From Psychroflexus longus (GTDB lineage: Bacteria; Bacteroidota; Bacteroidia; Flavobacteriales; Flavobacteriaceae): a stretch of 64,000 bases of DNA. Positions 6,566-11,762 of this stretch are shown piece after piece; position 1 is the stretch's first letter, and each line of letters begins with the position of its first letter. The notes beneath the pieces are model-generated. The model saw nothing but the letters and a program-made list of their open reading frames with translations. It had not been told where the DNA came from and did not search any database. The stretch spans positions 248,001 to 312,000 of the forward strand of contig NZ_JAIQZE010000001.1 in assembly GCF_020164595.1 (NCBI RefSeq), in the 5' to 3' direction. The translations under genes and the position numbers were made by a program.

Positions 6566-7552
6566 CTACTTCCAATCTTCAGAATACACCAAACCTAATT
6601 GTTCTCGTATTTTATCCAAAGTTTCTATCAACTCCAAAGAAGCAGCTAGTGGCATTTCCGGACTTTGAGTTAAGCCTTTGTCCAAACACTCCTGCACGTG
6701 TTCAATTTCAAACTGATAACCATGAGTTGGATAATGAAAATCAATGTGGTCTTTGCCTGAGTCAGTTGTAATCGATAATTTATCGGTTTGATGGAATCGC
6801 GAACCAAACTCCACCGTAGCTTTTTCAAAATAAATTTTAGCCTTTGAAGGGGTCGTTTTAGCAAAACTAGAAGATAATTTTGCTGTTGCTCCAGAGGCAT
6901 ATTTAAAGTTGATTTGATTGGAAATATCAATACCTGTTGAGGAAAATTCACAAGTCGCTTCCATTTCCTGAGGAGAACCAAGAAGCTTTAAAGCTAGAAA
7001 CACTGGATAAATCCCAATATCCAATAAAGCGCCTCCACCTAAATCTTTATTGAACAGTCGTTTTTCTGTATCAAATTTAGCTTTGAAGGAAAAATCAGCT
7101 TCCACTTTCAGGCATTTGCCATAAGTTTCATACTGATTGAGTTGATGAACTTTTTGAAGATGCGGCATGAAGTTAGTCCAAAGTCCTTCCATCAAAAACA
7201 AAGACTTTTCTTTTGAAGCCTGAATCATGGTCTTTAGTTGCTCTGCATTTATCGCCATTGGTTTTTCACATAACACAGCTTTCCCATGCTCGAGACACAT
7301 CATGGTATTTTCGTAATGAAACACATGTGGTGTGGCGATGTAAATGATATCTACTTTGGGATCTTTAGCCAGTGCTTCGTAAGAACCATAGGCGGTTTCC
7401 ACATCAAATTCGGATGCAAAATTTCGAGCTTTTTCTAAAGTTCTTGAAGCCACTGCGTAAAGCTGAGCACCTTCGACATCATTTAAGTCTGAAGCAAATT
7501 TATGAGCGATACCTCCTAAGCCTATTATTCCCCAGTTGTGATTTTTTTTCAT
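6566..7552 (-). CDS. Gfo/Idh/MocA family NAD(P)-dependent oxidoreductase
   Basis: 328 residues, normal for the family. Rossmann fold at the N-terminus with the glycine motif GIIGLGGIAHKF (residues 8-19), the sugar-dehydrogenase EKP motif in CEKPMAIN near residue 96, and a C-terminal alpha/beta domain with GGGALLDIGIYPV, which carries the conserved catalytic-region Asp and Tyr. No signal peptide, so cytoplasmic. It resembles trans-1,2-dihydrobenzene-1,2-diol dehydrogenase-like and glucose-fructose oxidoreductase-like members. Substrate is unknown, probably a sugar or polyol. It is a lone gene: serS downstream has its own promoter, and the phenylalanine hydroxylase leader lies divergently upstream. 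Confidence 0.88.
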   Translation of the reverse strand: MKKNHNWGIIGLGGIAHKFASDLNDVEGAQLYAVASRTLEKARNFASEFDVETAYGSYEALAKDPKVDIIYIATPHVFHYENTMMCLEHGKAVLCEKPMAINAEQLKTMIQASKEKSLFLMEGLWTNFMPHLQKVHQLNQYETYGKCLKVEADFSFKAKFDTEKRLFNKDLGGGALLDIGIYPVFLALKLLGSPQEMEATCEFSSTGIDISNQINFKYASGATAKLSSSFAKTTPSKAKIYFEKATVEFGSRFHQTDKLSITTDSGKDHIDFHYPTHGYQFEIEHVQECLDKGLTQSPEMPLAASLELIETLDKIREQLGLVYSEDWK

Positions 7553-7640
7553 ATATCGATGATTCTAAATGAATTTGATATTACTAATAATTTATGAGAA
7601 GTGACCAATTGAAGTATGTTTTAGTTTAACACTTGTTGAT

Positions 7641-7670
7641 TTGTGTAATTTTAGATATTATCTAATTTTG
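7641..7670 (+). promoter_or_regulatory. promoter of the tyrosine leader and phenylalanine hydroxylase
   Basis: TTG at 7641-7643, a 19-bp spacer, then TAATTTTG at 7663-7670, matching the Bacteroidota TTG/TAnnTTTG consensus. The leader-peptide ATG begins at 7675, only four bases after the -7 box, so the transcript would start at or a few bases before the ATG and the leader would be translated from a nearly leaderless end. Confidence 0.65.
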
Positions 7671-7674
7671 AAAC

Positions 7675-7734
7675 ATGACAAAGAAGAATCATTATTATTA
7701 CTATTATCCACTTCTAAACAATAGAATCGGTTAA
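7675..7734 (+). CDS. tyrosine-run leader peptide (attenuator), 19 aa
   Basis: ATG at 7675 to TAA at 7732-7734 encodes MTKKNHYYYYYPLLNNRIG. Five consecutive Tyr codons occupy 7693-7707. The stop lies 30 bp before an intrinsic terminator that itself precedes the phenylalanine 4-hydroxylase start, an enzyme whose product is tyrosine. The last codons overlap the antiterminator half-site GAATCGG (7724-7730). A ribosome stalled at the Tyr run would leave that site free, and a ribosome at the stop would cover it. This is the arrangement of trp, his and phe attenuation leaders. The peptide itself is presumably not functional. I know of no described example upstream of a phenylalanine hydroxylase; conservation in relatives would be the deciding evidence. 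Confidence 0.75.
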   Translation: MTKKNHYYYYYPLLNNRIG

Positions 7735-7774
7735 TGGTACAATTGAAATAATAAACCAAAATTAATCCCGATTC
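7724..7774 (+). promoter_or_regulatory. antiterminator pairing of the tyrosine attenuator
   Basis: GAATCGG at 7724-7730, within the last codons of the leader peptide, is perfectly complementary to CCGATTC at 7768-7774, the 5' arm of the terminator hairpin; flanking TTAA/TTAA can extend the helix past a short bulge. The two pairings are mutually exclusive, as attenuation requires. Confidence 0.65.
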
Positions 7775-7802
7775 AATTGAGAGTCGGGATTTTTATTTTT
7801 TA
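7765..7802 (+). terminator. intrinsic terminator / attenuator before phenylalanine hydroxylase
   Basis: ATCCCGATTC (7765-7774) pairs with GAGTCGGGAT (7781-7790) in a 10-bp stem with one G-T wobble and a 6-nt loop, followed by a T-rich tract (7791-7802). It stands between the leader peptide and the ATG at 7815, so it can only serve as a conditional terminator of that transcript. Confidence 0.8.
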
Positions 7803-7814
7803 AAAACACTTCTT

Positions 7815-8540
7815 ATGCAAGACATGTCTAAGTACAACGAAGAAGACTTATGGGTCTGGAAAACACTCTTTGATAGACAGAAGGAAAACATTTCTGGCAA
7901 AGCTTCTCAAGAATACATAGATGCATTGGAACATATGTCTCCCGTTTTGAATGCAAACGAAATTCCAAGTTTTAAAAAAATTAATATTTGGTTTGAGACT
8001 GAAACCAAATGGGAGCTTAAGGTAGTGCCTGGACTTATACCTGTAGAAGACTTTTTTCAATTACTTGCCGAACGTAAGTTTTGTTCTTCAACATGGTTGC
8101 GTTCCAAAGATAGCTTAGACTATCTGGAAGAGCCAGATATGTTTCACGATATTTTTGGCCATGTCCCTTTATTGAGCAATCCTATTTTTTCTGAATTTGT
8201 ATATGAGTTTGGCAAACTTGGCTGTCAATTTCTGGATGAGCCAGAAAAGCTCTTACAACTTCAGCGTCTTTACTGGTTTACAATTGAATTTGGTGTTATC
8301 GAAGAAAAAGGTAAAATTCAATCCTACGGTGCTGGTATTTTATCTTCTTATGGAGAAACTAATCAAATCCACGAAATGAAGGCTAATTTTCTGGATTACT
8401 CCATTGAAGCTATTATCAAAAAAGTTTTCAGAACTGATATCATGCAAGAAGATTATTACGTGATCTCATCCTTTGAGACCCTATTTGAATCACTCAAAAA
8501 ACTATCCAAAGTCTGGAACAAGGAACTAACTGAGGTTTAA
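7815..8540 (+). CDS. phhA: phenylalanine 4-monooxygenase (tetrahydropterin-dependent)
   Basis: 241 residues, a single catalytic domain without the regulatory ACT domain of animal enzymes. It converts L-phenylalanine to L-tyrosine using O2, non-haem iron and tetrahydrobiopterin. The iron ligands are visible: His111 and His116 in EEPDMFHDIFGHVPLL, and Glu158 in YWFTIEFG. The start at 7815 was chosen because it follows the leader terminator; Met4 at 7824 is an alternative. Expression is probably controlled by the tyrosine leader at 7675-7802, which fits its role as tyrosine producer. It is monocistronic as far as can be seen. A decayed copy of its 3' end lies at 11448-11570. Confidence 0.93.
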   Translation: MQDMSKYNEEDLWVWKTLFDRQKENISGKASQEYIDALEHMSPVLNANEIPSFKKINIWFETETKWELKVVPGLIPVEDFFQLLAERKFCSSTWLRSKDSLDYLEEPDMFHDIFGHVPLLSNPIFSEFVYEFGKLGCQFLDEPEKLLQLQRLYWFTIEFGVIEEKGKIQSYGAGILSSYGETNQIHEMKANFLDYSIEAIIKKVFRTDIMQEDYYVISSFETLFESLKKLSKVWNKELTEV

Positions 8541-8631
8541 ATTTTGAATTGCTTCAACTTAATTGTCATAAAGATGAACGATGATTAAAGTTTCTTCGTT
8601 TATGCTTTTATTACTTACTTTTTTTAAAGTC
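8418..8631 (+). repeat. direct repeat copy A: 3' end of phhA plus downstream flank
   Basis: The last 40 or so codons of phhA and about 90 bp after the stop recur at 11448-11662 in the same orientation. In the core (8481-8631 against 11511-11662) I count about 15 differences over about 151 bp by hand, including one indel. Confidence 0.85.
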
Positions 8632-8885
8632 CATTTTCTATTTGGTTATTGACCAATTATTGAAAACAATTCAATTATAATCTAAAACGAGTTTACTTTT
8701 TAAAATACTTTTTGAGGCTTTAATCTGAAGAATTTTAAACCTAATTTTGAAATTAATCTTAAAATATTTTTGACGTTATATTCCCCATTAGGAATATCTT
8801 GAATAAAAAGTCAATTTTATTTTTTATAAAAATTCTTTGTTTTGAGGAGAGTTTTCATAAATTTATCCAAAAATGAACTAAAAAC
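8541..8885. other. 345-bp intergenic stretch after phhA
   Basis: The first 90 bp belong to direct repeat copy A. The rest is AT-rich with no supported gene. No strong terminator follows phhA, and I see no full promoter consensus before the Tat oxidoreductase at 8886. Confidence 0.6.
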
Positions 8886-11332: not shown

Positions 11333-11363
11333 TGAACCCGATTCCTTTTTCGAATCGGGTTCA
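11333..11363 (+). terminator. intrinsic terminator after the DUF1080 gene
   Basis: A perfect 12-bp stem, TGAACCCGATTC (11333-11344) with GAATCGGGTTCA (11352-11363), 7-nt loop, followed by a moderately T-rich stretch. The core CCCGATTC/GAnTCGGG is the same as in the phhA attenuator. It is either coincidence or a relic of a second phhA leader. Confidence 0.65.
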
Positions 11364-11447: not shown

Positions 11448-11570
11448 AAAAGGTTTATCGGGTCTAGTCACAAGCAAAAAGATCGCATGGCTATATCTTC
11501 ATTTAAAATACTGTTTGAATCACTCAATAAACTATCCAGAGTCTGGAACAAGGAGCTAGCTGAGGTTTAA
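11448..11570 (+). pseudogene. decayed duplicate of the 3' end of phhA
   Basis: From 11487 (ATG) to the TAA at 11568-11570 an open stretch of 27 codons (ending SRVWNKELAEV) matches the C-terminus of phhA (SKVWNKELTEV) with the same stop codon. Similarity continues upstream in the same register to about 11448, but an in-frame TAG and indels break it. No iron ligand region is present, so it cannot encode an active enzyme. The match goes on about 90 bp past the stop, so this is a DNA duplication and not convergent protein sequence. Confidence 0.85.
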
Positions 11571-11662
11571 ATTTTGAATTACTTCAACTTAATTGTTATA
11601 AAAAATGAACGATAATTAAAGTTTCTTCGTTTATACTTATGTTCCTTACTTTTTATAAAGTC
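11448..11662 (+). repeat. direct repeat copy B
   Basis: Second copy of the sequence at 8418-8631, in direct orientation. Between the two copies lie exactly two genes, the Tat oxidoreductase and the DUF1080 lipoprotein. Confidence 0.85.
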
Positions 11663-11762
11663 TAGTTATTACGCGGCTTTAAGTCAGGGTATTTGGAATA
11701 TTTTAGTTAAAATTGTATTGTTAAAAAATACCAGCAATATTTTATAATATATTGCACTTTAA

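Follow-up and report, generated by a model that had tools for sequence, protein, structure and literature searches.

A tyrosine-rich leader peptide and predicted transcription attenuator upstream of the phenylalanine 4-hydroxylase gene in Psychroflexus longus and other Bacteroidota

Many Bacteroidota appear to control the enzyme that converts phenylalanine to tyrosine through a Tyr-rich leader peptide that would sense a shortage of tyrosine itself. Analysis of a 64,000 nt stretch of Psychroflexus longus DNA (NZ_JAIQZE010000001.1 positions 248,001-312,000; hereafter the window, whose own positions are used for all coordinates below) and of related loci indicates that phhA, encoding a short phenylalanine 4-hydroxylase, is very probably controlled by ribosome-mediated transcription attenuation in response to tyrosine. 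Such attenuation of phhA by a Tyr leader was the original prediction for this DNA, and at the level of sequence it is now supported by conservation of the element, by co-variation of its pairing partners and by a fixed spacing. The leader ORF, its Tyr codons, three RNA pairings, their geometry, their conservation and a promoter box are established in the sequence.

The phhA leader region of P. longus

The presumed controlled gene, phhA, occupies 7815-8540 on the forward strand and encodes a product of 241 amino acids that matches Pfam Biopterin_H with 147 bits. The best NCBIfam models for this product are prokaryotic phenylalanine 4-monooxygenases, with scores that fall below the respective cut-offs (243 vs 247 and 238.8 vs 264.75). 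The leader region is situated between phhA and a divergent upstream gene of the Gfo/Idh type (6566-7552, reverse strand). As predicted, reading of the ORFs and a codon scan place ahead of phhA a forward-strand leader ORF of 19 codons plus a stop (7675-7734) that encodes MTKKNHYYYYYPLLNNRIG, has comparable ORFs in relatives and contains five consecutive Tyr codons at 7693-7707, which are the presumed sensor.

This run of five TAY codons is the only one in the window, and none occurred in 100 shuffles. The whole genome holds three such runs, and the leader's is the only one with a terminator within 200 nt downstream; the other two were considered as similar leaders and rejected for want of a terminator over that distance. 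One of these two lies inside a short ORF with a TTG start and the other in no ORF that we found. At L165 in this genome (G000:C2:33875-33889), the 15-nt run of Tyr codons is present in a short ORF upstream of a gene that by eye resembles a prolyl-tRNA synthetase gene, with no terminator within 200 nt.

The leader ORF is followed by an intrinsic terminator, also part of the original prediction, with a stem formed by 7764-7774 and 7781-7791 and a subsequent U tract. In the numbering of classic attenuators, the 5' arm of this stem is segment 3 (7764-7774) and the 3' arm with its U tract is segment 4 (7781-7801), both on the forward strand. Segment 3 has an alternative partner in segment 2 (7722-7739, forward strand, located by folding), as GAATCGG at 7724-7730 is complementary to CCGATTC at 7768-7774; the predicted exact complementarity of the two is thereby borne out. 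The leader stop codon (7732-7734) lies within segment 2 and was said to abut GAATCGG directly; it is indeed close by, with one base in between.

The minimum-energy fold of 7655-7802 reveals a third element, missing from a prediction whose 2:3 and 3:4 pairings both stand. This is a hairpin in which the Tyr codons and the bases that follow (segment 1, 7699-7716, forward strand; also evident in the alignment of relatives) pair with segment 2, such that the Tyr codons (UACUAUUA) face UAAUGGUA around and downstream of the stop codon, and UUCUA is matched by UAGAA. This hairpin of Tyr codons is the segment 1:2 of a classic attenuator. Folding of the leader, a check that had been named beforehand, gave -30.4 kcal/mol (z -4.1), better than all 200 shuffles, and the antiterminator piece folded better than all but 3 of 200 (z -2.6).

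Elsewhere in the window, 11493-11667 is a partial second copy of 8463-8636, which spans the 3' end of phhA together with the adjoining downstream sequence. The copy is 87% identical and lies 3.03 kb away, and its matching frame contains stops. A terminator at about 11334-11361 beside it was first read as a leader remnant; since L070 in the genus genome G015 has a similar terminator after a coding end resembling, by eye, the gene that precedes it here, it is probably that gene's own terminator.

A predicted promoter at the leader start codon

The sigma-A box of F. psychrophilum, TAnnTTTG, is reported at -12 to -5 (PMC9723704). A predicted -7 box of this kind, TAATTTTG, is present at 7663-7670 on the forward strand, as judged from its sequence and from spacing in relatives. 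Its 4-nt gap to the leader ATG would make the A of the AUG (7675, forward strand) the +1 nucleotide, which leads to the prediction of a leaderless or almost leaderless mRNA. Among 47 loci that carry the element by a strict test given below, 27 have an exact box whose end lies 3-10 nt upstream of an in-frame leader start, as compared with 9 of 940 shuffles, and the most common gap is 4 nt (11 of the 47); the remaining 20 have no exact box close to the leader start. Twelve of the 18 close relatives have a gap of 4 or 5 nt (two of these being near-matches to the box); it measures 6-8 nt in four others, and 15 and 19 nt in L023 and L024. Leaderless mRNAs are reported to make up just 5.5% in F. psychrophilum, and flavobacterial mRNAs are described as having no Shine-Dalgarno sequences (PMC9723704). 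The phhA element would be a compact and probably leaderless attenuator in bacteria whose mRNAs, for flavobacteria according to that same source, lack such sequences.

Conservation in the genus and family

The genus was represented by 27 genomes, that of the window and 26 others, in which a short phhA was scored at 60% identity or more. Seventeen of these genomes contain a short phhA, eight have no match, and two (G021 and G024) match phhA solely by way of an open frame about 590 codons long. A Tyr leader with a terminator precedes 16 of the 17 short genes, and its cluster holds three to five Tyr codons; the exception, in draft genome G015, has no leader and an upstream region that looks rearranged by eye. 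A search of 299 genomes of the family, with the window's genome and one more of the genus included, located leader and terminator at two loci, both in one other genus; five more loci with a short phhA (L025-L029) have no leader. One of these five, L027, left out of the positive count, combines a terminator with a loosely Tyr-containing ORF. For long-form hydroxylases, a Tyr-cluster ORF is present upstream in 2 of 21 (L030-L050), as judged by the ORF alone.

When the 18 positive leaders were folded, the 2:3 and 3:4 pairings were obtained in all 18 and the 1:2 pairing in all except L024, where it is weak. In an alignment of these sequences 92.9% of cells pair, as compared with 90.1% in shuffles and at most 50% when the partners are slid; both the paired cells and the covariation score lie above all 500 shuffles, and the count of double-change pairs does not exceed that of shuffles, 147 of 500 of which reach it. 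The inner 1:2 stem closes with A-U in nine sequences, U-A in four, G-C in two and no pair in three. The R1 search of the 27 genus genomes gave phhA leaders as its 16 top matches. Across 397 family genomes, 57 had a match at E<=2e-4; the best four are phhA leaders, and the next eight (L170-L177) include three leaders of the His or Phe type, the remaining five being plain terminators or something else.

A wider distribution in the Bacteroidota

A wider scan of named genome contigs returned at least 591 stretches, from which the nearest 80 phhA loci, mostly from Bacteroidota and not a random sample, were kept; 77 of them have at least 150 nt of upstream sequence. To pass a strict test, a locus had to have a terminator no more than 90 nt downstream of an ORF that is 6-45 codons long and places three Tyr within five residues. 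This combination is present at 47 of the 77 loci and at none of 385 shuffled regions, in which a Tyr-cluster ORF without a terminator occurred 15 times. Eight of the 47 loci were already in the close set (six from the genus itself, two from the other one) and 39 are new. A degenerate Tyr-containing leader with a terminator was seen by eye at nine more (L095, L104, L112, L113, L120, L124, L133, L142 and L155). The other 21 loci have no leader, the G015 locus (L011, which is L088 of this set) included; for several of them, absence of the Tyr element is accounted for by a phhA gene that sits closely behind another gene. Comparison with relatives had been set in advance as a test of the prediction, and its outcome is that Tyr cluster and terminator are kept at 16 of 17 loci in the genus and 47 of 77 in the wider set.

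Carriers include records named Planktosalinus, Flavobacterium gelidilacus, Fluviicola, Crocinitomix, Lewinella, Saprospiraceae and Chitinophagales. On a tree of PhhA proteins the strict leader label is clustered, needing 15 changes (shuffled mean 23.9; none of 500 shuffles as low), a pattern compatible with more than one origin. Two records, L112 and L123, are titled Actinomyces viscosus and Glaciecola amylolytica, and their PhhA sequences branch among those of Fluviicola and other Crocinitomicaceae-type sequences; L123 also has a near-identical leader. These two records are perhaps mislabelled or contaminated.

Within the 47 wider-set leaders Tyr accounts for 189 of 864 residues (21.9%), followed by Asn with 10.5%, while Phe contributes 2.9%. 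This composition fits a sensor of the product of the enzyme rather than its substrate. Outside the Tyr cluster the peptides are unlike one another, and the clusters themselves are in places interrupted by H, C, A or I.

Partner-specific pairing and spacing

At each of the 47 loci the pairings were compared with shuffles. The 2:3 duplex is better than shuffles at p<0.05 in 27 loci and the 1:2 pairing in 25, with combined Fisher values of 4e-24 and 3e-20 that treat the loci as independent; these p values are nominal since related loci are not independent. Taken singly, 2:3 is not significant in 20 loci and 1:2 in 22, and L144 and L156 are poor in both. Segments 2 and 3 differ from locus to locus and do so together: examples of the 2:3 pairing are CGUUCCCG with CGGGAAC in L099, ACCUCUG with CAGAGG in L093 and AUUCUACU with AGUAGAAU in L089. 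When partners were swapped between loci, own partners summed to -541 kcal/mol and permuted ones to -434 on average (z -7.5); no permutation out of 5000 did as well, and in 42 of the 47 loci the own partner is better than the median of the others. Thus, the mutually exclusive antiterminator that had been predicted is backed by partners that co-vary between loci.

A stalled ribosome has its leading edge about 12-15 nt past the codon on which it rests. In 85% of the 47 loci, as compared with 17% of shuffles, 11-17 nt separate the last Tyr codon from the first paired base that follows, and the median distance of 14 nt agrees with the room that a stalled ribosome needs. The geometry from stall site to antiterminator, held to be workable in the window, is in this way maintained near 14 nt across loci. 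The end of the stop codon ranges from -11 to +24 nt relative to the end of segment 2.

These results bear on the simplest alternative, namely that a plain constitutive terminator or 5' UTR hairpin stands by chance next to an ORF and regulates nothing. Terminator-like matches are common, with 0.8 expected by chance in the 1.6 kb scanned, and several of the weaker R1 matches inspected are indeed plain terminators. However, chance or a plain terminator is rejected by the recurrence of Tyr-cluster ORF and terminator at 47 of 77 loci when none of 385 shuffled regions shows the combination, and pairing is partner-specific and spacing fixed, which leaves this explanation extremely improbable.

Proposed mechanism

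The features found are those by which attenuators are recognized: a leader ORF with clustered codons, an intrinsic terminator before the gene, a co-varying 2:3 pairing, a sequestering 1:2 pairing, and positions such that a stalled ribosome would free segment 2 and a ribosome at the stop codon would cover it. We propose that transcription begins at or beside the leader AUG. An undelayed ribosome would reach the stop codon and cover segment 2, upon which the 3:4 terminator would form and phhA would be off. When charged tRNA-Tyr is short, the ribosome would stall on the Tyr codons and block the 1:2 hairpin, leaving segment 2 free from about 14 nt downstream to pair with segment 3. Pairing of 2:3 would prevent the terminator, phhA would be transcribed and tyrosine would be made from phenylalanine. 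If there is no translation, the 1:2 hairpin would form and termination would occur by default. The start site, translation of the leader, stalling and the response to tyrosine are steps that we infer.

A different trigger would leave the same downstream anatomy. The nascent Tyr-rich peptide might itself arrest the ribosome, perhaps by sensing free tyrosine or another ligand, instead of the ribosome responding to a shortage of charged tRNA-Tyr, and multi-Tyr runs could conceivably act as such a peptide. Yet leader peptides that are unlike outside the Tyr residues, and clusters interrupted by other residues, are what is expected for codon sensing, and stalling at high tyrosine would be an inverted logic for a biosynthetic gene. 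We regard arrest by the peptide as highly improbable and retain stalling at Tyr codons for want of charged tRNA-Tyr as the preferred reading.

Tyrosine supply and prephenate dehydrogenase

The distribution of prephenate dehydrogenase (tyrA) was scored with PF02153, where absence denotes no match over the cut-off. This enzyme is present in 21 of the 27 genus genomes; five of the six without it carry the leader and phhA, and 11 of the 16 leader carriers in the genus keep tyrA, the window genome among them. Since that genome has tyrA, its phhA probably provides a second, tyrosine-controlled route. Outside the genus, genomes with a leader (strict or by eye) have PF02153 over the cut-off in 2 of 50 cases (one partial, 27.7 bits), as compared with 13 of 20 genomes without a leader, three with too little upstream sequence having been left out. 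A plain-count Fisher test, which takes no account of genome completeness, gives 1e-7 for this difference; a tree-based comparison has two to four informative independent pairs, all in the expected direction, with p 0.125 at best. That carriers outside the genus frequently lack tyrA is in keeping with the biosynthetic logic of a Tyr leader. In one genus genome, G008, neither phhA nor prephenate dehydrogenase was found; this organism is possibly a tyrosine auxotroph, or its assembly has gaps.

A link between phhA and tyrosine catabolism was also considered. 4-Hydroxyphenylpyruvate dioxygenase is over the cut-off in 25 of the 27 genus genomes and, as it is present with or without phhA, is uninformative. 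A biosynthetic role for phenylalanine hydroxylase (PAH) has been proposed from GapMind fitness data in Dyella japonica and, beside a dehydrogenase, in the Bacteroidetes member Echinicola vietnamensis (PMC7311316). The role is shared with that suggested here, and the account given of those cases in that source does not describe regulation of the PAH. The Tyr leader would offer a regulatory explanation for a biosynthetic phenylalanine hydroxylase, an enzyme often viewed as catabolic, and may predict which Bacteroidota make tyrosine solely from phenylalanine and oxygen. We lean towards a broader scenario in which a leaderless attenuator specific for tyrosine, ancient and widespread among Bacteroidota, made an oxygen-dependent hydroxylase into a feedback-controlled biosynthetic enzyme and accompanied loss of tyrA, with tyrosine supply then dependent on phenylalanine, oxygen and ribosome stalling.

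Relation to known attenuators

A search of the whole window against Rfam at gathering score gave one tRNA alone and no amino acid leader, T-box or riboswitch. Within 7550-7860 at E up to 5 there were eight weak matches, none a T-box or riboswitch, and the best leader match of the element was Thr_leader with 19.8 bits against a cut-off of 55.

In the enterobacterial trpL, hisL and pheL systems, stalling of the ribosome on codons for the pathway product selects between antiterminator and terminator. Judged on the tested sequence features, which it shares, the phhA leader would work like these and other ribosome-mediated attenuators; its codons, gene and phylum differ from the enterobacterial ones. 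Attenuation by trpL and pheL is likewise described in PMC11802643. The mechanism type is therefore known from trp, his and phe leaders, and what would be new is the tyrosine specificity, the target gene and the probable leaderless start. No earlier description of a Tyr leader on phhA was found in the literature searched, though broader attenuator surveys might mention one.

The nearest published leader bearing Tyr codons that we found is aroR of Corynebacterium glutamicum, a Phe-Tyr-Phe leader before the aroF operon at which stalling raises transcription (PMC11802643). It is reported to respond to Phe limitation, with Tyr availability having no effect, and it belongs to a different gene in a different phylum. 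Attenuators have also been predicted before tyrA operons, including pheA > hisHb > aroA-aroQ > tyrA of Bacteroides thetaiotaomicron (PMC1173090, Table 7). Tyrosine biosynthesis operons are the shared theme; those predictions concern tyrA rather than phhA, and no Tyr leader peptide is named for them.

A leaderless start has a reported counterpart in trpL of Sinorhizobium meliloti, in which transcription of the leader begins at the ATG of its ORF (PMC7298713); the start is predicted for phhA, and that system has Trp codons, controls trpE(G) and is alphaproteobacterial. The same trpL provides, as rnTrpL and peTrpL, a precedent for a terminated leader RNA or leader peptide that also acts in trans (PMC7298713). 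A short, terminator-ended transcript is predicted for phhA as well, but the leader peptide is unlike between species outside its Tyr residues, and we consider an additional trans role unlikely; it would be compatible with attenuation, not exclusive of it.

Closer relatives of the layout occur in the Flavobacteriaceae. For F. psychrophilum, PMC9723704 gives clues that operons for amino-acid biosynthesis are preceded by leader-peptide attenuators and, as a separate matter, counts pheA and hisG among the conserved 5' elements; neither tyrosine nor phenylalanine occurs as a word in its main text. Those attenuators have the same layout as the phhA leader, which would differ in sensing Tyr rather than His or Phe and in controlling phhA. 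Additionally, the P. longus genome itself contains a His leader, MKTLNLHHHLSISLNAVVM, with a terminator upstream of hisG (L167, G000:C40). Similar His leaders precede hisG at two family loci (L175 and L176) and, by eye, a hisG-like gene at L069, and a Phe-rich leader, MSNKTLHTAFYFWYFFFLK, stands before a prephenate dehydratase gene at the family locus L171.
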